A stretch of 64,000 bases of DNA from Ctena decussata. Its lineage: Eukaryota; Mollusca; Bivalvia; Lucinida; Lucinidae. A program made the position numbers and the translations under genes. This document shows positions 2,325 to 61,851 of the stretch, in pieces (within the stretch, counting starts at the first letter, position 1; each line of letters starts with the position of its first letter). Location: positions 91,620,979 through 91,684,978 of the forward strand of contig OZ022501.1 in NCBI GenBank assembly GCA_963989385.1. Direction: 5' to 3'. The notes beneath the pieces are model-generated. The model was not told where the DNA came from. It ran no database searches and worked only from the letters and a program-made list of their open reading frames with translations.

Positions 2325-3223
2325 TGCCCCTTAGCACAGCGGCAATAGTGCTACTTAAGAAGACATCCCCTAATAGTAGTGCAGCGGCAATAGCGCTACT
2401 TCAGAAAGCATTCCCTTATAGTAGCACAGCGGCTATAGCGCTACTATAGAAGACAGCCCTTTTTAGTAGCGCAGCGGCAATAGCGCTACTTCAGAAAACA
2501 CCCCCTTATAGTAGCACAGCGGCAATAGCGCCACTTTGGAAGACATACCTTATAGTAGCGCAGCGGCATTAGCGCTACTACAGAAGACAGTCCCTTTTAG
2601 TAGCGCAGCGGCAATAGCGCTAGTACAGAAGACATCCCCTTAAAGTAGCACAGCGGCAATAGCGCCACTTTGGAAGACATTCCCTTATAGTAGAGCTGCG
2701 GCATTAGCGCTACTACAAAAGACAGCCCCTTTTAGTAGCGCAGCGGCAATAGCGCTAGTAGCGCTGCGGCATTAGCGCTGCTACAGAAGACAGCCCCTTT
2801 TAGTAGCGCAGCGGCAATAGCGCTACTTCAGAAAACACCCCCTTATAGTAGCGCAGCGGCAATAGCACCACTTTGGACTGACATTCCCTTATAGTAGCGC
2901 AGCGGCATTAGCGCTACTACAGAAGACAGTCCCTTTTAGTAGCGCAGCGGCAATAGCGCTAGTACAGAAGACATCCCCTTATAGTAGCGCAGCGGCAATA
3001 GCGCCACTTTGGAAGACATTCCCTTATAGTAGCGCAGCGGCATTAGAGCTACTACAGAAGACAGTCCCTTTTAGTAGCGCAGCGGCAATAGCGCTAGTAC
3101 AGAAGACATCCCCTTATAGTAGCGCAGCGGCAATAGCGCCACTTTGGAAGACATTTCCTTACAGTAGAGCTGCGGCATTAGCGCTATTACAAAAGACAGC
3201 CCCTTTTAGTAGCGCAGCGGCAA
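2325..3223 (+). repeat. 45-bp tandem repeat array A
   Basis: About 20 copies of a 45-bp unit containing AGTAGCGCAGCGGCAATAGC and a GACAGCCCCTTTT-like segment. Units alternate between variants (CAATAGCGCTA / CATTAGCGCTA), suggesting a 90-bp higher-order period. The array is interrupted at 3224 by a TIR element and resumes at 8618. Confidence 0.9.
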
Positions 3224-9435: not shown

Positions 9436-10470
9436 TTACCATCTACTAAAGGGAGAAGCTTTCTTAAGTGGCGCTAATGCCGCTGCGCTACTAGAAGGTG
9501 AAGTCTCCTGAAGGAGCGCTAATGCCGCTGCGATTCTACAGGGGCAAGTCTTCTTAAGTGGCGCCAATGCCGCTGCGCTACTAGAGGGTGAAGTCTCCTG
9601 AAGGAGCGCTAATGCCGCTGCGCTTCTACAGGGGCAAGTCTTCTTAAGTGGCGCTAATGCCGCTGCGCTACTAGAGGGTGAAGTCTCCTGAAGGAGCGCT
9701 AATGCCGCTGCGCTTCTACAGGGGCAAGTCAACTTAAGTGGCACTAATGCCGCTGCGCTACTAGTGGCAGTAGTCTCCCGAAGTAGCGCTAATGGCGCTG
9801 CGCTTCTACAGGGGCAAGTCTTCTTAAGTGGCGCTAATGCCGCTGCGGTACTAGAGGGTGAAGTCTCCTGAAGTTGCGCTATTGCCGCTGCGCTTCTATA
9901 GGGGGAAGTTTTCTTAAGTGGCGCTAATGCCGCTGCGCTACTAGTGGGTGTAGTCTCCCGAAGTGGCCCTAATGGCGCTGCGCTTCTACAGAGGGAAGTC
10001 TTCTTAAGTGCCGCTAATGCCGCTGGGCTACTAGAGAGAGAAGTCTCCTGAGGTGGCGCTAATGCAGCTGCGCTTCTACAGGGGGAAGTTTTCGTAAGTG
10101 GCGCTAATGCCGCTGCCCTACTAGAGGGTGAAGTCTCCTGAAGTGGCGCTAATGCCGCTGCGCTACTAGAGGGTGAAGTCTCCTGAAGTGGCGCTAATGC
10201 CGCTGCGCTTCTACAGGGGGAAGTTTTCTTAAGTGGCGCTAATGCCGCTGCGCTACTAGAGGGTGAAGTCTCCTGAAGTGGCGCTAATGCCGCTGCGCTT
10301 CTACAGGGTGAAGTCTTCTTAAGTGGTGCTAATGCCGCTGCGCTACTAGAGGGTGAAGTCTCCCGAAGTGGCGCTAATGCCGCTGCGCTTCTACAGTGGA
10401 AGTCTTCATTGCCGCAGCACTGTAGGTCCAGTGTTCTATTGGCGCTATCAGCGCAGCGCAACTAGTAGTT
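9436..10470 (-). repeat. 45-bp tandem repeat array B, opposite orientation
   Basis: About 22 copies of the array A unit, inverted relative to it. Because 45 is a multiple of three the minus strand stays open for 341 codons (repeating SAAALAPLKKTSP), but this is a by-product of the period. A 90-bp higher-order period (CTACTAGAGGGTG / CTTCTACAGGGGC) is clear. Confidence 0.9.
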
Positions 10471-21746: not shown

Positions 21747-23542
21747 ACTAGAATTGTTTTTCTACGAAAAAACAGAATGTCTCCCCCCTTTTTGATGTCA
21801 AAAGGATCAGTCATTAAGACGCCAAGGGAAAAACAATATGTTTCCCTACTCTGAAGCAGGGATTCATTATAAGTAAAAAGTATAAATGCAAGAGTTATAG
21901 TTGTTATGCTCTGCATGTCATGTAATGTTGACTGATATTCATATTTAGTTTTTGTCAAAAAATATAAATGCAAGAGTTACAGTGCTCTGCACTTCGTCTA
22001 TTTATATGTTGACTGATATTTGTATGAAGTTTCATGAATATAGCTTAAATGGTTTTCAAGTTATAGAGCTTAGACGATTGAGACACGATTTTGTGAATGA
22101 CAAAGTTCCAAGGGAAATAACTCAAATAGTATAAATGCTGTGCTCTGCAGGTTGTCTAGTGTTGACTGACATTTGTATGACGTTTCGTGAATATAGCTTG
22201 TCCGGTTTTCAAGTAATAAAGCGATTGAGACACGATTTTGTGACTGACAAAGGTCCAAGGGAAATAACTCAAGAAGTATAAATGCAAGAGTTATGGTTCT
22301 TGCACTATGCAATTCTTCTAATGTTGATTGATATTTGTATGAAGTTTCGTGAATATAGCTTGAATGGTTTTCAAGTTATAGAGCAGACACGACTGAGACA
22401 CGATTTTGTGACTGACAAAATTCTAAGGGAAATAACTCAAATAGTATAAATGCTAAAGTTATGGTTCTTGCATTCTGCATGTCGTCTGATGTTAATTGAT
22501 ATTTGTATGAACTTTCATGAATATAGCTTGAATGGTTTTAAAGTTATAGACGGACTCGACTGAGACACAATTTTGTGATGGACAAAGTTCCAAGGGAAAT
22601 AACTCAAAAAGTATAAACGCCAGAGTGCATTCTGCACGTCGTCTGATGTCGATTGATATTTGTATGAACTTTCATGAATATAGCTTGAATGGTTATAAAG
22701 TTATAGACAGACTCGACTGAGACGCAATTTTGTGATGGACAAAGTTCCAAGGGAAATAACTCAAAAAGTATAAATGCCAGAGTTACCATTTGTGCACTCT
22801 GCCTCATGTTGATTGATATTTGTATGAAGTTTCGTGAATAAAGCTTGAGCAGTTTTCAAGTTATAGAGCGGACACAATTGAAACACAATTTTGTGATGGA
22901 CTAAGTTCCAAGGGAAATAACTAAAAAAGTATAAATGCCAGAGTTACCATTCTTGCGCTCTGCACGTCGTCTCATGTTGATTGATATTTATATGAAGTTT
23001 CGCGAATATAGCTTGAGCGGTTTTCAAGTTATAGAACGGACACGATTGAAACACAATTTTGTGATGGACTAAGTTCCAAGAGAAATAACTCAAAAAGTAT
23101 AAATGCCAGAGTTACCATTCTTGCACTCTGCACGTCGTCTCATGTTGATTGATATTTATATGAAGTTTCGCGAATATAGCTTGAGCGGTTTTCAAGTTAT
23201 AGAACGGACACGATTGAAACACAATTTTGTGATGGACTAAGTTCCAAGGGAAATAACTCAAAAAGTATGAATGCCAGAGTTACCATTCTTGCACTCTGCA
23301 CGTCGTCTCATGTTGATTGATATTTATATGAAGTTTGGCGAATATAGCTTGAGCGGTTTGGTCCTTTGAGATCATGGAATATATTCTGAGAAGTCAGAAA
23401 TGATCATACGTTTAGATTCATTTTCTAAACAAATTTGAAATATTTTGGTATTTTTCGACTTATATCAGTCTTTGAGACGACTGCCATGTTAAACCTGCAA
23501 ATTTACTGTTTTTTTCCTCTGGCTCCTTGTGCCAGATTTAAA

Positions 23543-23586
23543 GGGTCACTGATGAGGCTTGAATAGCCGAAACCGCGGTATGGCCC
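23543..23586 (+). ncRNA. Type I hammerhead ribozyme, unit 1
   Basis: Stem I strand GGGTCA (23543-23548) pairs with TGGCCC (23581-23586), with one G-U. The core CTGATGA is at 23549-23555. Stem II is GGCT/AGCC with loop TGAAT (23556-23568). GAAA is at 23569-23572. Stem III is ACC/GGT with a two-base GC loop and ends in the cleavage triplet GTA (23578-23580). The predicted cut is after 23580. All invariant hammerhead core bases are present. Stem III (ACCGCGGT) is self-complementary, as in hammerheads that act as dimers. A CTGGC/GCCAG hairpin sits just upstream at 23519-23535. Confidence 0.88.
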
Positions 23587-23917
23587 AACTTCTTACTTAT
23601 GAATGTTTTCTTTGCTCTTAAAGGATCTAAACTTTTATCATTATTTACTATCACTGCAGCTGGATGTTGTGCCGTGTGGCGGCCGTAAAAAGTCTCCCCG
23701 CACTCATCTATAGTGCAGATTATATTTTCCTTTTGGTCCTTTGAGATCATGGAATATATTCTGAGAAGTCAGAAATGATCATACGTTTAGATTCATTTTC
23801 TAAACAAATTTGAAATATTTTGGTATTTTTCGACTTATATCAGTCTTTGAGACGACTGCCATGTTAAACCTGCAAATTTACTGTTTTTTTCCTCTGGCTC
23901 CTTGTGCCAGATTTAAA

Positions 23918-23961
23918 GGGTCACTGATGAGGCTTGAATAGCCGAAACCGCGGTATGGCCC
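23918..23961 (+). ncRNA. Type I hammerhead ribozyme, unit 2
   Basis: Identical to the unit 1 motif, exactly 375 bp downstream. The predicted cut is after 23955. Cleavage here and in unit 1 would release a 375-nt monomer (23581-23955). Confidence 0.88.
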
Positions 23962-24292
23962 AACTTCTTACTTATGAATGTTTTCTTTGCTCTTAAAGGA
24001 TCTAAACTTTTATCATTATTTACTATCACTGCAGCTGGATGTTGTGCCGTGTGGCGGCCGTAAAAAGTCTCCCCGCACTCATCTATAGTGCAGATTATAT
24101 TTTCCTTTTGGTCCTTTGAGATCATGGAATATATTCTGAGAAGTCAGAAATGATCATACGTTTAGATTCATTTTCTAAACAAATTTGAAATATTTTGGTA
24201 TTTTTCGACTTATATCAGTCTTTGAGACGACTGCCATGTTAAACCTGCAAATTTACTGTTTTTTTCCTCTGGCTCCTTGTGCCAGATTTAAA

Positions 24293-24336
24293 GGGTCACT
24301 GATGAGGCTTGAATAGCCGAAACCGCGGTATGGCCC
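24293..24336 (+). ncRNA. Type I hammerhead ribozyme, unit 3
   Basis: Identical motif in the third unit, with predicted cut after 24330. It bounds a second full monomer, 23956-24330. Confidence 0.88.
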
Positions 24337-24667
24337 AACTTCTTACTTATGAATGTTTTCTTTGCTCTTAAAGGATCTAAACTTTTATCATTATTTACTA
24401 TCACTGCAGCTGGATGTTGTGCCGTGTGGCGGCCGTAAAAAGTCTCCCCGCACTCATCTATAGTGCAGATTATATTTTCCTTTTGGTCCTTTGAGATCAT
24501 GGAATATATTCTGAGAAGTCAGAAATGATCATACGTTTAGATTCATTTTCTAAACAAATTTGAAATATTTTGGTATTTTTCGACTTATATCAGTCTTTGA
24601 GACGACTGCCATGTTAAACCTGCAAATTTACTGTTTTTTTCCTCTGGCTCCTTGTGCCAGATTTAAA

Positions 24668-24711
24668 GGGTCACTGATGAGGCTTGAATAGCCGAAACCG
24701 CGGTATGGCCC
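24668..24711 (+). ncRNA. Type I hammerhead ribozyme, unit 4 (partial unit)
   Basis: The ribozyme is complete although its unit is truncated 59 bases later at 24770. The predicted cut is after 24705, giving a third monomer, 24331-24705. Confidence 0.88.
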
Positions 24712-25070
24712 AACTTCTTACTTATGAATGTTTTCTTTGCTCTTAAAGGATCTAAACTTTTATCATTATTCAAGTTATAGAACGGACACGATTGAAACAT
24801 AATTTTGTGATGGACTAAGTTCCAAGGGAAATAACTCAAAAAGTATAAATGCCAGAGTTACCATTCTTGCACTCTGCACGTCGTCTCATGTTGATTGATA
24901 TTTATATGAAGTTTCGCGAATATAGCTTGAGCGGGTTTCAAGTTATAGAACGGACACGATTTGTGACAGACAGACGGACAGACGGACAGACGGACGGACG
25001 GACGGACAGACGGACAGACGCCCGAGGAAAAACAATATGTCTCCCGACCCTGAAGGGGGGAGACATAATG

Positions 25071-27756: not shown

Positions 27757-29455
27757 ATCAGAATCAGAATCAGAATCAGAATTGTTTACTGGTGATACGT
27801 CCAAGGACAATCATTCACCAGGACCTGTGAATCAGGGAAGCTAGTACCTAGCCCTTATAAGAGAAGTAAACTTAGTAACTGAATCCTCTGCACCCTCAGC
27901 AGCAGAAATAAGTGAATCTTCCAAGGAATTCCAATCTCTAATAGTCTGGGGGAAGAAACTGGACTTGTAAATGTCAGTCCCAGCCAATGGGGTTTGAAAT
28001 GTCAGGGAATGATGATTCCTGGTATGCCTATTTGGGGGACAAGGTCATTTATGGGTATACTGGCTACACCCCTCAGACCTTTGTAAAGCATTATAAGTCT
28101 ACTATCTTTCCTTCTCGTTTTTAGGGATTCCCACTTAAGTTTCTCCAGAATGCCAGTCATACTCCCAGTTTCATATGTGTAATTTCCCATTACAAATCTA
28201 ACTGCTCTTTTCTGCACCTTCTCAAGTTCATATTGAAGAAGTGTACTTTGAGGGTCCCAAACTAAACTGCCATACTCCAGGACTGGACGCACCAGTCCCT
28301 TGTATGCTGACTCCTTAACATCTTGTGGACATGCTGCCAAGTTACGTCTGAGGAAGCCGAGGGTCCTATTAGCCTTTGTGCAAATATTACTGACATGTGT
28401 GTTCCATTTCAAATCATTGGCAATGGTTATGCCGAGATACTTGATAGTTTCTACATTACTGAGGACCGTTCCCTCTAAGGTGTAGGAAGCATTGATCTTC
28501 TTGATCCGTTTCCTTGTAATTTGCATTATATTGCATTTAACGGGTTGAAATCTGATGCCCCAACTCCTTGCCCAACAACCTTAATGATCTATATCCTCCT
28601 GAAGTTTCACAGTGTCTTCAATATCTCTGATTTCACGATAGCAAACACAGTCGTCAGCAAAAAGTCTTAATTCCGAGTCAATATTTTCTGTTATATCGTT
28701 AATGTATGACGAGAACAACAATGGTCCAAGCACGGTGCCCTGGGGATCACCTGACAAAACCGGGGCCCAATCCGACTTAACTCCATTTACCACCACACGC
28801 TGCTGCCTGTAACAGAGAAAAGAATCTATCCATTTCAGAGTCTTCCCACCAATACCATAGCCGTATAGCTTACATTTAAGTAATTCATGAGGGGGAGTGT
28901 TAAAAGCTTTCTCGAAGTCCAAGATAAAAGTGTCCACCTGACCGCCCTTATCCAAGATTTTAGCCGTCATTTATAACCGTGATCAATTGAGTTTCACAGC
29001 TATGTTTCTTACGGAAAGCATGTTGTCTGTCTGACAAAAGTTTATGTTTATCCAAATGTGCCATAATATTAGAGCAGACAATGTGTTCGAGTAACTTGCA
29101 TGGTACACAAGTTAGAGAAACCGGTCGGTAATTGCAAGCCAAAGACCTATCTCCTTTTTTGATGAGTGGGCATATATTTGCAAGAGACCATTCCTTGGGG
29201 ATTTCACCCGTGTCAATAGATTGTTGGAAGAGATGAGCAAACATTGGGCCTAATTCAGATGTTAGTTCTTTTAAGACTCTAGGATGCAATTCATCAGGTC
29301 CTAAAGCTTTCGATGGGTTCAAGCCCTTAAGAAGTTTCGTTACACCTTCTGCCGAAACATGAATGTCCTCCATGAAAGGAGCCGAGCGATTTGGAAGGGG
29401 GGCTTGGGTGTGCTCACTTTTGTTAAACACATCTGAAAACTGACCGTTTTCGGAT
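27757..29455 (-). pseudogene. CR1/Jockey-type LINE reverse transcriptase, 5'-truncated and mutated
   Basis: Minus-strand order: KLLKGLNPSKALGPDELHPR, NYRPVSLTCVPCKLLEHIV and SCETQLITVIND (29455-28985); a frame change near 28970; then DTFILDFEKAFNTPPHELL, a GDPQGTVLGPLLF catalytic-region motif, and the active-site block FADD near 28655; an in-frame TAA at 28583-28581; then thumb and C-terminal regions in the same frame as the preceding block (YLGITI, NRTLGFLRRNL, SAYKGLVRPVLEYGS, LEKLKWESL) to a frame change near 28045. The 3' end is a TTCTGA-type tail (27757-27781). It is non-functional. The endonuclease domain is missing. Confidence 0.9.
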
Positions 29456-29530
29456 GGTTCCAGGTGTGTGCAACTATGGATACGTTCCAGCTGAGCCACC
29501 TGGGGAACATCATTATAAATATAGAAACAA
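29456..29530 (-). repeat. Short dispersed repeat, possibly SINE-like
   Basis: Minus strand AATGATGTTCCCCAGGTGGC, then TCAGCTGGAACG...ATAGTTGCACACACCTGG. A second copy lies at 61276-61345. GGTGGCTCAGCTGG resembles a Pol III A box, but no clear B box is seen. Confidence 0.4.
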
Positions 29531-29570
29531 CAACTATAAGATTCCAGTCGGCTATACCACAAGGTGCAAC

Positions 29571-29576
29571 ATACAT

Positions 29577-29643
<67 letters not shown>

Positions 29644-29662
29644 TACATACATACATACATAC
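29571..29662. repeat. CATA/CA microsatellite
   Basis: CATA repeats flank a CA tract of ~24 units. Long open frames across it (CVCV / THTH) are artefacts of the repeat. Confidence 0.95.
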
Positions 29663-30066
29663 ACCTAATAGAGTAGGGTACGAATCGACCAGGATGAGGG
29701 TACGAATCGACCAGGATATGGTACGAATTGACTCGGGTACAAAACGTCCAGGGTACGAATCGTCTTGCACCCGACGAATTCAGCTGATGCTGAATGCACT
29801 TTTCACACAGGGTTCAGAGGATGAAGACCTCTTCTGTGGTGCTTCGTCCGGCTCTGAACCCAGCCTGTTCTTCGGCGATTATCACTGCAGCTTGGGCTTT
29901 GAGTCTGTTCTAGATGACTTTTGGCATGAATCTGCTCGGATGACTATTAAATGAGGCTGATGGGTCTGTAGTTCTGGTAGAGCTGTAAGTTGTACTTTTT
30001 AACAGTGTGTTTAAGTCCCTGGACTCGGCCATTCTCCTCTTCTCCAGATCTTGTTACAGATCTTTG

Positions 30067-57300: not shown

Positions 57301-60300
57301 ACCTCAAGTAAAAGATATACTATAGTGATAAAAAGTTTAATAATTTTCATTTTCTTTAGAATCAACACTAAAAAGAGTACAAAGGATTATCACGAGCTCT
57401 ATCAACATTTTAACATCATCAGATGAGAAGCCCTATTTCTCTACCTCTGTTTCTAACTCTCTCTTGTCTCCTTGGAGAATACTCTCCTCTGCTCTCTCTA
57501 GGGCTGGTACCGCACTCAACTTTGGGTCATTGGCCAGGTCATGACTGCTCTTGCTCTTACCTTTCCAACCCTGCAATAAGATATTCTAGTTAATCATAAT
57601 TACCATAGATATTGGGCCATCTTAACCAGCTGCTTAACTCATCCTGCATTTTGAACAAGATGACTTCATCCTCTAGCAAGGAGAATGAAAGCAAGCCATG
57701 GAATACTATGTCTTGCCTGTCTGCACTTAGTCACAAAACAAAGCTAAAACAGAGAACTGGACAAAAGCATATGCCGCCGCAATAACACAGGAAAAGTAAT
57801 ATCTATGTCTTGCTTCTTACAGTTGCAGGTGAGACAAAAATAGCAAGTAAAATGCCAAACAGTGCTGACCCTGATAAGACCTGCTCCTCTGATGTATGTA
57901 AATATCACAAGCATGCTTGCATTAAGTATACAATCTTTGTCCCTCTCTACTGTAAGAATCAAAATTTAATCATTAAACTGACTTTCACACATTATAGTGC
58001 ATTATGCCAACATTTTTATTGTAACTCAAGAAACATTTGCAAGTTTAAGTTTCATGAAAATAAGGCATTGCAAAATGATATTAAGACATTCACCTTTCAA
58101 AGTTTTCTACTTTGCACCCACAGCAAGCACTTTCAGCAACATAAAACTAGACATCAGTCAATGAAAAGTGGCATTTTGTAATGACACCAGGTTTCCAACA
58201 GTATTATACTGTATATCACAGGATTTTGACACTGTCCAATCAGACATAGTATTATATTTGTAAGTGCATTAGAATACAGGAGGATTCTTAACCACAGAGT
58301 CCAACTTATACAGGAAATCCTTGAAGAGTCTAATTATAGACGAAACCTAGGTCGGATTAGTCGCGTTCAAGCCATGGACAAGACCACAGAGCCAACAGGG
58401 GATGGCAGCCCTGGCCAAACTATACAATCACTTTCCAATGAATTAGAAAACAGGTTTTATGGAAATTTAACATCAATTATCCATCCATAATTATCATAAA
58501 TTAGTCCCTCTTATTTACAGCTCTAACTATTAAGGAAAGGAGTTTGTTGCTATGGAAACCAGAATTTCCACACTGGTTACCTCTGAGACTTTTGTATTCA
58601 TCTCTTCGTCTTCTTCTGCCTCTTCTCCAAATGATAACAGCTTGAAATTTCTGTTAAAGAAGAAAATAACCATCTACAATGTGTGATTTGCATCCAGCAA
58701 CATGTTTGACTTGCATTCTGCAATGCGTGTGACTTGCATACAGCAATAAGTGTGACTTGCATACAGCAATGTGTGTGACTTGCATTCTGCAATGTGTGTG
58801 ACATGCATACAGCAATGTGTTTGACATGCATACAGCAATGTGTGTGACTTGCATTCTGCAATGTGTGTGACATGCATACAGCAATGTGTGTGACTTGCAT
58901 ACAGCAATGTGTGTGACTTGCATACAGCAATGTGTGAGACTTGCATACAGCAATGTGTGTGACTTGCATACAGCAATGTGTGTGACTTGCATACAGCAAT
59001 GTGTGAGACTTGCATTCTGCAATTTGTGTGACATGCATACAGCAATGTGAGAGACTTGCATTCTGCAATGTATGTGACATGCATACAGCAATGTGTTTGA
59101 CATGCATACAGCAATGTGTGTGACTTGCATTCTGCAATGTGTGTGACATGCATACAGCAATGTGTGTGACTTGCATACAGCAATGTGTGTGACTTGCATA
59201 CAGCAATGTGTGAGACTTGCATTCTGCAATTTGTGTGACATGCATACAGCAATGTGAGAGACTTGCATTCTGCAATGTGTGTGACATGCATACAGCAATG
59301 TGTGTGACTTGCATACAGCAATGTGTGTGACTTGCATACAGCAATGTGTGAGACTTGCATTCTGCAATGTGTGGGACTTGCATACAGCAATGTGTGAGAC
59401 TTTAATTCTGCAATGTGTTTGACTTGCATACAGCAATGTGTGTGACTTGCATACAGCAATGTGTGTGTGACTTGCATACAGCAATGTGTGTGACTTGCAT
59501 ACAGCAATGTGTGTGACTTGCATACAGCAATGTGTGAGACTTTAATTCTGCAATGTGTTTTACTTGCATACAGCAATGTGTGTGACTTGCATACAGCAAT
59601 GTGTGTGACATGCATAAAGCAATGTGTGTGACTTGCATACAGCAATGTGTGTGACTTGCATACAGCAATGTGTGTGACTTGCATTCTGCAATGTGTGTGA
59701 CATGCATACAGCAATGTGTGTGACTTGCATACAGCAATGTGTGTGACTTGCATACAGCAATGTGTGAGACTTGCATTCTGCAATTTGTGTGACATGCATA
59801 CAGCAATGTGAGAGACTTACATTCTGCAATGTGTGTGACTTGCATACAGCAATGTAAGTGACTTGCATACAGTAATGTGTGTGACTTGCATACAGCAATG
59901 TGTGAGACTTGCATTCTGCAATGTGTGTGACATGCATACAGCAATGTGTGTGACTTGCATTCTGCAATGTGTGTGACTTGCATACAGCAATGTGTGAGAC
60001 TTTAATGCTGCAATGTGTTTGACTTGCATACAGCAATGTGTGTGACTTGCATACAGTAATGTGTGTGACATGCATACAGCAATGTGTGTGACTTGCATAC
60101 AGCAATGTGTGTGACTTGCATACAGCAATGTGTGTGACTTGCATACAGCAATGTGTGAGACTTTAATTCTGCAATGTGTTTGACTTGCATACAGCAATGT
60201 GTGTGACTTGCATACAGCAATGTGTGTGACATGCATACAGCAATGTGTGTGACTTGCATACAGCAATGTGTGTGACTTGCATTCTGCAATGTGTGTGACT

Positions 60301-61851
60301 TGCATACAGCAATGTGTGTGACTTGCATTCTGCTATGTGTGTGACTTGCATACAGCAATGTGTGTTACTTGCATTCTGCAATGTGTTTGACTTGCATACA
60401 GCAATGTGTGGGACTTGCATTCTGCAATGTGTGTGACATGCATACAGCAATGTGTGTGACTTGCATTCTGCAATGTGTGTGACTTGCATTCCGCAAGCAA
60501 TGTGTGTGACTTGCATTCTGCAATATGTTTGACCTGCATACAGCAATGTAAGTGACTTGCATTCTGCAATGTGTTTGACCTGCATACAGCAAGCAATGTG
60601 TGTGCCTTGCATTCTGCAATGTGTGTGACTTGCATTCTGCAATGTGTGTGACTTGCATACAGCAATGTGAGCGACTTGCATTCTGCATTGTATGTGACTT
60701 GCATACAGCAATGTGAGCGACTTGCATTCTGCATTGTATGTGACTTGTATAAAGCAATGTATGTGACTTGTATACAGCAATCTAAGGTAATTAGGACAGC
60801 AGACAATTTAAGATACAGATGATTCACTTGGAATCACAAACAAACATGGTTAGTGTGAATTTTAACAATTATGCCTGTCAAATGTGCAATTGCATTCCCA
60901 AATAGAAATTAAAAATTCAAGCTTCTGCAAAAAGTTAGCCAAAATATAGCAATGCTGTTTGACTCATATGTATGGAAACCGTATTCTGCAAAATATTTGC
61001 TTTGAGGTAAAAGAAATAGTAGAGTTATCACAAAACCCTTGAAAGTGACCAAACCGAAATTTCAATTTGGTAACTTTCAGGAGTATTGTGAAAACTCCAT
61101 CTAGAACTGAAATTTTGTACATCACATATATCATGTATATGCGAGCCATTTATCATTGTTATATATTGGCAACCCATTTGCAAAAGCTTGAATTTTTAAT
61201 TTCCAAGCCGGAATAAAATTGCGAATTTTCCAGGCCTGGCTACCCTGTATAAGTGACTGGACGGACACTCGGTGCCAGGTGTGTGCAACTATGGTTACGT
61301 ACTGCTGAGCCACTTGAGGAACATCATTAGGAGAACAGAAACAGAACAGAACAGCCTGACTATGTGCAAACTGGTAAATCCCTCCCAAAATGAATTAAAC
61401 CCTTCACATTAAGGTTGTTAGTGATTTGTTGAAGTTTACATATCAATTAAGTCAAAAAAATTATAAATATTTTCTATGATACAATGGTTCAAGCTATAAC
61501 AAGTTGTGTAACTTATGTCAAGAAACAACTGACAAAGAAAAGTGTGTATGTAATATCTTTACACAAGATAAAATGTCTTTGCAATATACATGCTTCTCAC
61601 ATAAGTAGTTGGGTTCATTCACCAAAATAAATACTATGGAGACTCTGTAACCTAAATAAAAATCTAACTATGCACTAGGCAAGGCAGTTCTAACTGGGGA
61701 AACCCTCAACCTTTTTACACTTATAATCACTGAATATCTATCAAACATACTTTGTAGCCTTTGATTTACTCTTAGGCTTCTTCTCTAAGTCTTCTTCTTT
61801 CTTCTGTTTGATAACCCTCGGAACAATATCGTCAAATGGGTTGGACAACAC
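51200..61851 (-). CDS. CWC27: CWC27 spliceosome-associated cyclophilin homolog, 3' seven exons (5' end outside window)
   Basis: Seven exons on the minus strand (61851-61751, 58650-58581, 57570-57445, 55249-55116, 54272-54157, 52669-52417, 51353-51200) join in frame with GT-AG introns and end in TAG. They encode about 317 residues. The order of recognisable segments matches animal CWC27 after its cyclophilin domain: NPFDDIVPR, then NFKLLSFGEEAEE, WKGKSKSSHDL, a Lys/Glu-rich coiled region, ERQKYKALRKQQ, an acidic tract, and the C-terminal YEIYDPRNPLTKRRRE. CWC27 is a nuclear protein of the activated spliceosome that binds CWC22/eIF4A3 near the exon junction complex; this is family knowledge. 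The cyclophilin domain and start codon must lie above 64000. Introns are 0.8-3.1 kb and carry a 23-bp satellite, a HINE-like element and MITEs. No frame break or missing splice site is seen, so the gene looks functional. Family identity is strong; exon limits come from splice consensus and phase agreement at every junction. Confidence 0.95.
52417..52669 (-). CDS. CWC27: CWC27 exon with ERQKYKALRKQQ and acidic tract
   Basis: Acceptor ATTTTAG and donor ATG|GTAGGT enclose 253 bases (83 codons plus two bases on each side). Key segments are ERQKYKALRKQQ, REDITLAILDKFKTKL, and a Glu-rich run ending DVNDMS. The Trp codon is split across the next intron, as the human EGWMSH motif predicts. Confidence 0.95.
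52772..52842. repeat. Intronic palindrome
   Basis: GCAAATAGTGCAAACCCAGA, TCAGACTGCTCC and its inverse, ending GTTTACACTATTTGC. A 71-bp hairpin in a CWC27 intron. Confidence 0.7.
53150..53310. mobile_element. Palindromic MITE in CWC27 intron
   Basis: ATTATTGATCTTTGT...GTGAATATGCAGTTTTATTG is followed by the inverse CAATAAAACTGCATATTCAC. About 160 bp. Confidence 0.7.
53765..53850. repeat. Intronic inverted repeat
   Basis: ATTGGGACACCTAAAAACCA...TTAATTTGTCCC and inverse GGTTTTCAGATGTCCCAAT: an ~85-bp foldback. Confidence 0.6.
53942..54144. mobile_element. Palindromic MITE (CAGAGCTCTAGATAAGAGGG), copy 1
   Basis: A 203-bp inverted repeat with ends CAGAGCTCTAGATAAGAGGG. The central arms TTGTGACCCCTCATCTGAAC and GTTCAGATGAGGGGTCACAA meet at CGTCTCGTCGAGACG. 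The target duplication GTGTT is at 53937-53941 and 54145-54149. It lies 12 bases inside the intron from the splice donor of the CWC27 exon at 54157. Confidence 0.88.
54157..54272 (-). CDS. CWC27: CWC27 exon DELKQEVKQLKKEI
   Basis: Acceptor ATTTTAG and donor CTG|GTATTA enclose 116 bases: one base, 38 codons, one base. DELKQEVKQLKKEI corresponds to the coiled-coil EELRKEARQLKREL stretch of human CWC27. A MITE ends 12 bases past the donor (54144), so this intron starts with 12 bases and then transposon sequence. Confidence 0.93.
55116..55249 (-). CDS. CWC27: CWC27 exon, Lys/Glu-rich linker
   Basis: Acceptor TATCAG and donor AA|GTAAGA enclose 134 bases (44 codons plus two). It begins ESGDEEEKEAIRENVKKKLK and continues as a charged linker, matching the RERIAKKLKK region of the human protein in position and composition. 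Confidence 0.9.
55373..56770 (+). mobile_element. HINE/pearl-like element in CWC27 intron, ~146-bp core
   Basis: The head ACTAGAAATGTTTTTC...GATGTCCCCCC is followed by about eight monomers of ~146 bp (AAGTCCTCCAGTGACCTTGA, GTTTGGTGAAATTCCATCCA). The tail hairpin GTCCCCCCTCACC-TTT-GGTGGGGGGAC is followed by ATAAT. Same end family as 21747-25070. It is opposite in orientation to CWC27 transcription. Confidence 0.75.
57002..57193. mobile_element. Palindromic MITE (CAGAGCTCTAGATAAGAGGG), copy 2
   Basis: 192 bp, same family as 53942-54144, flanked by TATAA on both sides (56997-57001, 57194-57198). A worn third copy is suggested at 58480-58530. Confidence 0.85.
57445..57570 (-). CDS. CWC27: CWC27 exon GWKGKSKSSHDL
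   Basis: Acceptor ATTGCAG and donor GAG|GTAGAG enclose 126 bases (42 codons, phase 0 at both ends). KGKSKSSHDL is shared with vertebrate CWC27; the rest is an acidic, poorly conserved linker. Confidence 0.93.
57770..57843 (+). mobile_element. HINE-like tail fragment
   Basis: GCCGCCGCAATAACAC..., CTATGTCTTGCTTCTTACAG and GGTGAGACAAAAATAG resemble the tail at 40400-40450. Head not identified. Confidence 0.4.
58581..58650 (-). CDS. CWC27: CWC27 exon NFKLLSFGEEAEE
   Basis: Acceptor TTTAACAG and donor GAG|GTAACC bound 70 bases: one base finishing the Lys codon plus 23 codons. The LLSFGEEAEE segment is one of the best conserved linear motifs of CWC27. The large 23-bp tandem array begins about 40 bases upstream of this exon, inside the preceding intron. 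Confidence 0.93.
58690..60785. repeat. 23-bp tandem repeat array in CWC27 intron
   Basis: About 90 copies of a 23-bp unit, two main variants: GTGTGTGACTTGCATACAGCAAT and a form with CATTCTGCAAT, plus CATGCATACAGC forms. Variants recur in blocks of several units, so there is higher-order structure. The minus strand lacks stop codons in all three frames for long stretches, giving apparent proteins of up to 373 residues; these are repeat artefacts lying inside an intron. Confidence 0.95.
60786..61750. other. CWC27 intron, no exon seen; dispersed repeat at 61276-61345
   Basis: Contains an inverted pair near 61030-61095 (TATCACAAAACCCTTGAAAGT / ACTTTCAGGAGTATTGTGA) and a copy of the short repeat at 29456-29530. 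Otherwise unrecognised. Confidence 0.45.
61751..61851 (-). CDS. CWC27: CWC27 exon with NPFDDIVPR segment
   Basis: Acceptor TTTCAG precedes GTG and the donor is AA|GTATGT. The exon is 101 bases, begins in phase 0 and leaves two bases of a Lys codon. It encodes VLSNPFDDIVPRVIKQKKEE and a Lys-rich end. In CWC27 this is the segment just after the cyclophilin fold. It is the most upstream exon in the window; from here to 64000 there is only repeat DNA. Confidence 0.93.

Follow-up and report, generated by a model that had tools for sequence, protein, structure and literature searches.

A type I hammerhead retrozyme-like element in the bivalve Ctena decussata and the internal 3′ end of its insertions

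By which route do the retrozymes of animals return from RNA into DNA? This open question is raised by a tandem array of 375-bp units, each carrying a type I hammerhead ribozyme (HHR), in a 64,000-nucleotide stretch of the genome of the bivalve Ctena decussata (assembly GCA_963989385.1, contig OZ022501.1, positions 91,620,979 to 91,684,978 of the forward strand). We refer to this whole stretch as the window, and count positions from its first base. Retrozymes of the mussel Mytilus galloprovincialis have units of 350–390 bp and approximately 5000 HHR copies (Cervera and de la Peña 2020, PMC7229834). For the way back into DNA, that paper only proposed copying of a primed circle, and it named Penelope-like elements (PLEs) as strong candidates.

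The element in the window is an animal-type retrozyme, and thus of a known kind; this unit was not traced to a named sequence. What is new is the anatomy of its insertions, which supports an internal-start, Penelope-like route. We put at roughly 0.7 the probability that the array is a non-autonomous retrozyme-like insertion, the transcripts of which are predicted to cut themselves into 375-nt monomers that likely become circles and are likely copied, probably by a Penelope-like enzyme, from one internal start lying approximately 65 nt beyond the cut. A preliminary description of the stretch had pointed out the array and its ribozymes; to this the present analysis adds the PLEs, the palindrome in helix III, and the anatomy of the insertions, with their fixed 3′ and truncated 5′ ends.

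The array and its hammerhead motifs

Tandem Repeats Finder, run on the window, reported a period of 375 with 3.8 copies and 100% matches at 23357–24770. The array amounts to 3.77 units, of which the 3 complete ones are identical, and each base equals the base 375 positions further on, which confirms the tandem hammerhead array described earlier. With unit positions numbered from the predicted HHR cut, the array is entered at position 152 and left at position 65. The unit is A+T-rich (37.6% G+C) and, at 375 bp, lies within the ranges given for metazoan retrozymes without long terminal repeats (LTRs), which are 150–450 bp and less than 45% G+C. Its longest stop-to-stop frame, taken over two joined units, is 76 codons, so that the element is without a long protein frame and non-autonomous. 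No open reading frame (ORF) for a reverse transcriptase with a GIY-YIG domain was found in the unit; such frames occurred in separate elements. Together with a type I HHR in each unit, more than 1000 dispersed HHR copies, and arrays that may be shorter than one unit or as long as 10.75 units, these features support the retrozyme-like character that had been proposed.

A generic scan for type I HHRs found exactly four motifs on the + strand of the window, with CTGATGA starting at 23549, 23924, 24299, and 24674, and none on its − strand or in 60 first-order Markov simulated windows. All core bases are kept in 4/4 motifs. The scan placed the predicted cuts (Table 1) where the preliminary description had them, in phase, so that cleavage would give exact 375-nt monomers. 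Each motif consists of helix I (GGGUCA/UGGCCC; 6 pairs, including one G-U), the core CUGAUGA, helix II (GGCU/AGCC; 4 pairs), GAA, a helix III within ACCGCGGU, and an A before the predicted cut. The first two stems are as originally drawn, with six pairs including one G-U and a perfect stem II. The third had to be revised: the ACC/GGT pairing given for it would need a 2-nt loop, and the motif instead allows two forms. In one, 2 pairs are closed by a CGCG loop; in the other, two ribozymes join in an 8-bp helix, which is possible because the octamer ACCGCGGT is its own reverse complement.

Folding predictions favored the paired form. On its own, the 44-nt motif was predicted to prefer a non-hammerhead fold (−14.4 kcal/mol) over the hammerhead (−10.7 kcal/mol). 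For two copies, RNAcofold returned exactly a double hammerhead at −39.3 kcal/mol, as compared with 2 × −14.4 kcal/mol, in which the self-complementary ACCGCGGU forms an 8-bp helix III and helices I are intermolecular. The best structure of the closed circle retained 5/6 pairs of helix I and 4/4 of helix II, and 0/2 of helix III. From the dimer-favored fold and the absence of helix III in the closed circle, the model predicts that multimers would be cut and that circles would be stable.

Table 1. Features of the retrozyme-like array and its surroundings, in window coordinates.
Feature	Position	Strand	Basis
Retrozyme array, 3.77 identical 375-bp units	23357–24770	+	repeat finder, unit comparison
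Type I hammerhead motif 1, predicted cut after 23580	23543–23586	+	motif scan, folding
Type I hammerhead motif 2, predicted cut after 23955	23918–23961	+	motif scan
Type I hammerhead motif 3, predicted cut after 24330	24293–24336	+	motif scan
Type I hammerhead motif 4, predicted cut after 24705	24668–24711	+	motif scan
Self-complementary octamer ACCGCGGT: helix III, 8-bp inter-ribozyme helix possible	23572–23579	+	sequence, folding
Unit 1, predicted 375-nt monomer between two HHR cut sites	23581–23955	+	cleavage predicted
Unit 2, predicted monomer	23956–24330	+	predicted cuts
Unit 3, predicted monomer	24331–24705	+	predicted cuts
Final 65 nt of the array, from predicted HHR cut to fixed 3′ junction (...AACTTTTATCATTATT, then junction); inferred reverse-transcription start	24706–24770	+	measured insertions
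5′ junction; TTT ambiguous with the TTTT of the target	23357–23359	+	
168-bp satellite hosting the array; resumes after 24770; intact neighbors at 23011 and 23179 read GCTTGAGCGGTTTTCAAGTTATAG	22006–23356		

Insertions across the genome

A search of the genome (1.66 Gb, 245 contigs) with the 44-nt HHR gave 1273 matches at up to 3 mismatches and 0 for the reversed control, so that the related repeats expected elsewhere in the assembly by the preliminary description are there in abundance. Loci (numbered with the prefix L) were fetched in list order: the first 100 of the 1273 matches corresponded to 47 loci on contig C1 and 10 on contig C2, of which all 47 and 9, respectively, were taken. Four arrays elsewhere, chosen for their length, were added, as were L001 and L006–L008 from an earlier genome search. 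In this way, 65 arrays were measured, the window array included (L002–L005, which overlap the L065 array, have no measurement of their own), and 63 were kept for the duplication, length, and variant analyses, leaving out L056 and L063. In addition, a census of C1 comprised 67 insertions, including short copies found with 3′-end probes and counting L034 twice, since two distinct retrozyme arrays of like orientation fall there within ~2.5 kb. The census covers only loci that exactly match at least one probe, so that old or very short copies are missed, and its counts exclude L122 (5′ end at 369), which is located on C2. Ends were measured on the fetched DNA; apparent “1–50” ends seen in a genome search, most likely a padding effect of the tool, were not used.

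The 63 kept arrays are 104–4032 bp long, and inserts overall range from 40 nt to 10.75 units, with many copies shorter than one unit. The longest arrays measured were L065 and L066, with 10.75 and 9.48 units. L061 and L062, the flanks of which nearly match, probably go back to one event and represent a duplicated insertion. Taking the difference between the counts of two probes (32–65 and 77–110, below) suggests roughly 560 insertions, a rough figure; the genome probably contains several hundred, many of them nearly identical.

Nearly all of these insertions share their 3′ end. Among the measured arrays, 63/65 end at unit position 63–75, the exceptions being L056, which stops at 44 and has an additional piece, and L063, which is 84% identical and stops at 48. 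The C1 census, which overlaps this set, has 66/67 insertions ending at 63–75 and 62/67 at 64–69, i.e., ~65 nt past the predicted cut; its single exception, L113, ends at 49. The 5′ ends are variable, and genome-wide probe counts fall away from the 3′ end, with 1491 matches for unit positions 32–65, 1273 for the HHR, and 930 for 77–110 (34-nt probes and the 44-nt HHR probe, all at up to 3 mismatches; reversed controls 0). A fixed 3′ end combined with a variable 5′ end is the trace of target-primed reverse transcription, as in long interspersed nuclear elements (LINEs) and R2 elements, and such copying from one internal start is therefore the likely origin of these insertions. Being 65 nt beyond the predicted cut, the start differs from the RNA terminus expected from ribozyme cleavage. 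No statement of a fixed 3′ end for retrozymes was found in the titles, abstract openings, or main-text parts consulted in the open-licence literature.

The 5′ ends are not evenly spread. Of the 67 5′ ends on C1, 8 fall at unit position 8–10 (0.54 expected, p = 7e-8; 7 of the 8 are short copies) and 7 at 364–369 (1.07 expected, p = 1e-4; 5 of the 7 are short copies), while the predicted HHR cut (373–2) shows no excess, with 1/67 against 0.89 expected. A scan over these ends returned p-values of 0/5000 with a 3-nt window and of 0.0038 with a 6-nt window. Genome-wide counts of 34-nt probes, at one mismatch, were 1441, 1399, 1360, 1320, and 1311 for probes starting at 10, 4, 366, 360, and 354, respectively. 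The counts drop by 42 per 6 nt from 10 to 4 and by 40 from 366 to 360, versus 9 in the neighboring step; the uniform expectation is also 9 per 6-nt step for ~560 ends. Across the HHR cut, a 13-nt step drops by 39, against 19 under uniformity, to which CpG changes possibly contribute; some ends at this place are possible. For an enzyme moving 3′ to 5′ on the RNA, positions 8–10 come just before the 3′ strand of helix I (1–6), and 364–366 just before that of helix II (360–363). These pile-ups suggest arrest of the reverse transcriptase at a folded hammerhead, fitting an uncut, perhaps circular, template. Inserts longer than 65 nt cross the HHR cut, and the template must therefore have been uncut or religated, rather than a cut linear monomer; given the mussel data (PMC7229834), circles would fit best. 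In the variant analysis, which took arrays of at least 450 bp with the position covered two or more times, 289C>A and 51A>T were present in every copy of an array whenever they occurred in it (8/8 array-variant pairs).

Flanks shared words of at least 8 bp at 4/63 loci, whereas shuffling the flank pairs 200 times gave 1.3 such loci on average and at most 5 (the scan takes the longest shared word, not 4-bp repeats as such). One clear target duplication, of 17 bp, was found at L011; such cases are rare, and counts are otherwise little above the shuffled level. The first two flanking bases are TA at 31/74 loci, versus a background of 7.8%, an ambiguous sign, since TA also comes next in the unit itself; the A+T content of the next ten bases is 0.64, against 0.62 in the background. 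The window array and the L007 array, on contig C9, sit at the same point of the same 168-bp satellite (22006–24964 in the window), between GCG(G) and CAAG, where intact neighbors have TTTT, a possible target preference. By eye, the other flanks differ from locus to locus.

The window holds further repeats. Two 45-bp tandem arrays, at 2332–3223 and 9443–10405, appear by eye to be reverse complements of each other, and Tandem Repeats Finder reported a 23-bp minisatellite of 91 copies at 58680–60781. Frames resembling reverse transcriptase fragments were noted by eye on the − strand at 28002–28526 and 28960–29664.

Penelope-like elements as candidate partners

A Penelope-like enzyme is a candidate for copying the element because it fits the internal start measured for Poseidon, an element of Anolis, where the start lies 111–118 nt into the ORF and the HHR cut at 26 (PMC11167929). 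As in the retrozyme, an HHR is followed there by a fixed internal start or end, at 85–92 nt past the cut (by subtraction) instead of 65 nt, and copies occur in tandem; unlike Poseidon, the retrozyme is without a protein frame. In the C. decussata genome, a search for GIY-YIG domains scored 150 of 926 candidate places, all 150 of which were above the cut-off. HHRs in the Penelope-like families considered here are candidates by motif, with cut sites assigned by analogy.

One family, PLE-2, ends much as the retrozyme does. All 9/9 copies, picked by eye for a common 3′ region from 8 GIY-YIG loci and 13 fetched ones, end 62–63 nt past the predicted cut with the tail AACT(C/T)TTATTTCATT, which fits unit position 65 best, and uniquely, among the 375 positions. 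In L079, the reverse transcriptase domain in the frame of this family falls just short of the Pfam cut-off, with a score of 28.7 versus 29.6. Other families were rejected as partners, since their tails did not single out position 65: the two 3′ ends of PLE-1 ranked it 34th and 75th of 375, and the tails of PLE-3 and PLE-4 ranked it 16th and 22nd.

PLE-1 is a 3681-bp repeat with a 774-aa frame and a C-terminal GIY-YIG domain; Pfam did not call a reverse transcriptase domain in this frame, though it is present in many relatives. Its two 3′ ends lie ~45 nt apart past a candidate HHR, with 12 of 20 fetched ends at the first and 8 at the second (L109 assigned by eye), and its end loci (L093–L112, L074, L081, and L082) are mostly TA-rich tracts. 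These alternative ends resemble the optional 30–40 bp tail of Penelope elements (PMC11167929). Penelope-like copies occur every 3681 bp at C2:2587885-2621697 (L082 holds part of this region), on the − strand at lower and the + strand at higher coordinates; many have 774-aa open frames, and they are apparently young. Among the 120 proteins listed as relatives of PLE-1, 7 carry the name of Candidatus Thiodiazotropha or of the Solemya velum gill symbiont, both of them symbionts of clams.

By eye, helix III is self-complementary in several of the Penelope-like HHR candidates (L073, L075, L078, and L082; ATGCAT, ACGCGT, and AGCGCT), as is ACCGCGGT in the retrozyme, and double-hammerhead action may be general among the HHR elements of this genome. 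Another hammerhead-like motif, at 1501–1550 of L069, scored just below the Rfam cut-off and has the helix III ACCTAGGT (CCTTGG in two copies). It is distinct from the HHR of the retrozyme and occurs in 4 copies when up to 3 mismatches are allowed (the others at C1:38528682, C8:45546038, and C8:90762800).

A proposed route from RNA to DNA

The route we propose begins with multimeric transcripts, which would be cut best as double hammerheads, with two ribozymes on a common 8-bp palindromic helix III, as a lone ribozyme would prefer an inactive fold. A host ligase would then close the monomers into circles. A Penelope-like reverse transcriptase would nick the DNA, start inside the RNA at position ~65, and perhaps circle several times, until it stops at random or before HHR helices I or II, leaving a 5′-truncated array.

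Several observations weigh against this reading. Rfam gave no match at gathering score in the window (34 bits for Hammerhead_1, RF00163), and no hammerhead match at E ≤ 10 in 23300–24850; taken to the letter, the covariance check suggested in the preliminary description thus went against the motif, with a score below threshold. When 74 of 180928 candidates from a genome search with RF00163 were scored, the 1 match, below the cut-off, was at L069 and not to this element, and Rfam was dropped as a detector of the retrozyme HHR for want of a useful call. For the retrozyme-like character as such, this missing call is the sole point on the contrary side. The pile-ups of 5′ ends partly depend on how loci were found: 3 of the 8 ends at 8–10 (L113–L115) came only from probes that include one starting at 10, and 2 of the 7 at 364–369 (L117 and L119) only from those later probes. 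With only the loci found by the HHR or 32–65 probes, 5/59 remain at each place (p = 1e-4 at 8–10 and p = 0.003 at 364–369). Target-site duplications of at least 10 bp were found at 1/63 loci (0.1, maximum 2, in shuffles). Beyond the TA at the first two bases, retrozyme flanks did not show the TA-rich tracts in which the fetched Penelope-like ends mostly lie, so that such targets are not common to both. The match to the PLE-2 tail is short, with a shuffle p of 0.018 before allowing for five tails. In addition, a naive count of all variants within arrays gave 30 in all copies and 125 in some, and the length of the T-run near 303–304 is mixed between copies in L035, L058, L065, and L066. We think that many of the 125 are end effects, gap artifacts, or later mutations, and the T-run variation in L065 and L066 is perhaps reverse-transcriptase slippage; because the naive count includes alignment artifacts, array edges, and T-run differences, uniformity of arrays is taken as supporting evidence only.

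Cleavage, circles, reverse transcription, and the partner enzyme are all inferences from DNA alone, which does not separate a circle from an uncut linear multimer as template. On such a multimer, transcribed from a source array, the enzyme would start at the repeated internal tail and run upstream. HHR mutants of the Anolis element left insertion in vitro unchanged, and unprocessed RNA was called the dominant substrate (PMC11167929); uniform arrays are also expected here if source arrays are uniform. Cutting HHRs should, however, leave 5′ ends at the cut, where the C1 census has no excess, and the retrozyme RNA of mussel, though of another sequence, is mainly circular (PMC7229834). We regard a linear template as unlikely, yet as an alternative to be taken seriously. 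It is rather improbable that a LINE-type non-LTR enzyme, and not a Penelope-like one, moved the element. The fixed 3′ end, the 5′ truncation, and the one 17-bp duplication are also features of LINEs, and the window has reverse transcriptase-like frames, noted by eye, at 28002–29664. For RNAs moved by LINEs, however, copying generally begins close to or at the RNA 3′ end, in many cases within a tail, whereas the start here is internal, and no long poly(A) was seen by eye at the insertion junctions inspected. An internal start past an HHR has, on the other hand, been described for a Penelope-like element (PMC11167929). The tandem arrangement and the near-matching flanks of L061 and L062 would also suit an ordinary satellite in which the ribozyme is a relic and which owes its spread to unequal exchange and segmental duplication; with flanks that otherwise differ by locus (by eye, and apart from the satellite common to the window and L007), a fixed 3′ end, varied 5′ ends, and many copies below one unit, we consider this very improbable.

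Taken further, the Penelope-like route leads to a tentative scenario, which we hold to be a little better than unlikely. The retrozyme may be a tail mimic, a 375-nt circular RNA that parasitizes PLE-2 through a hammerhead, a spacer of 62–65 nt, and a AACTTTTAT..ATT start site. Its copies would be a fossil record of reverse transcriptase rounding the circle and stalling before helices I and II, and the palindromic helix III would act as a switch, by which multimers are cut as double hammerheads and the closed monomer stays shut.

Among known systems, the retrozyme of M. galloprovincialis has in common with this element type I HHR tandem units of similar length, low G+C content, copies in dimers and higher multimers, numerous HHRs, and a genome that also contains Penelope-like elements (PMC7229834; entries MN642551–MN642576); the likeness is one of description, at the level of DNA for the present element. 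Beyond what that paper gives for metazoan retrozymes, DNA evidence here yields the 3′ end, the pattern of 5′ truncation, and a candidate partner. Newt and axolotl HHR satellites and retrozymes resemble it, again by description, in a short helix III, a palindromic loop, and a favored dimer, the last measured there and predicted by folding here; dimer action has been reported for amphibian retrozymes (PMC7229834), and in the present element two ribozymes can pair over as many as 8 bp in helix III. Plant LTR retrozymes, likewise HHR repeats proposed to move via circular RNA, have type III HHRs, a spacing of 600–1000 bp, and 4-bp duplications (PMC4918200, PMC7761336), as opposed to the type I HHR and 375-bp unit described here.

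The route of animal retrozymes back into DNA is thus the question that these insertions address. As a set, they give the start site within a few bases, the stop points, and a candidate partner family, so that the route becomes testable at the bench with a defined RNA, a defined enzyme, and defined product ends.

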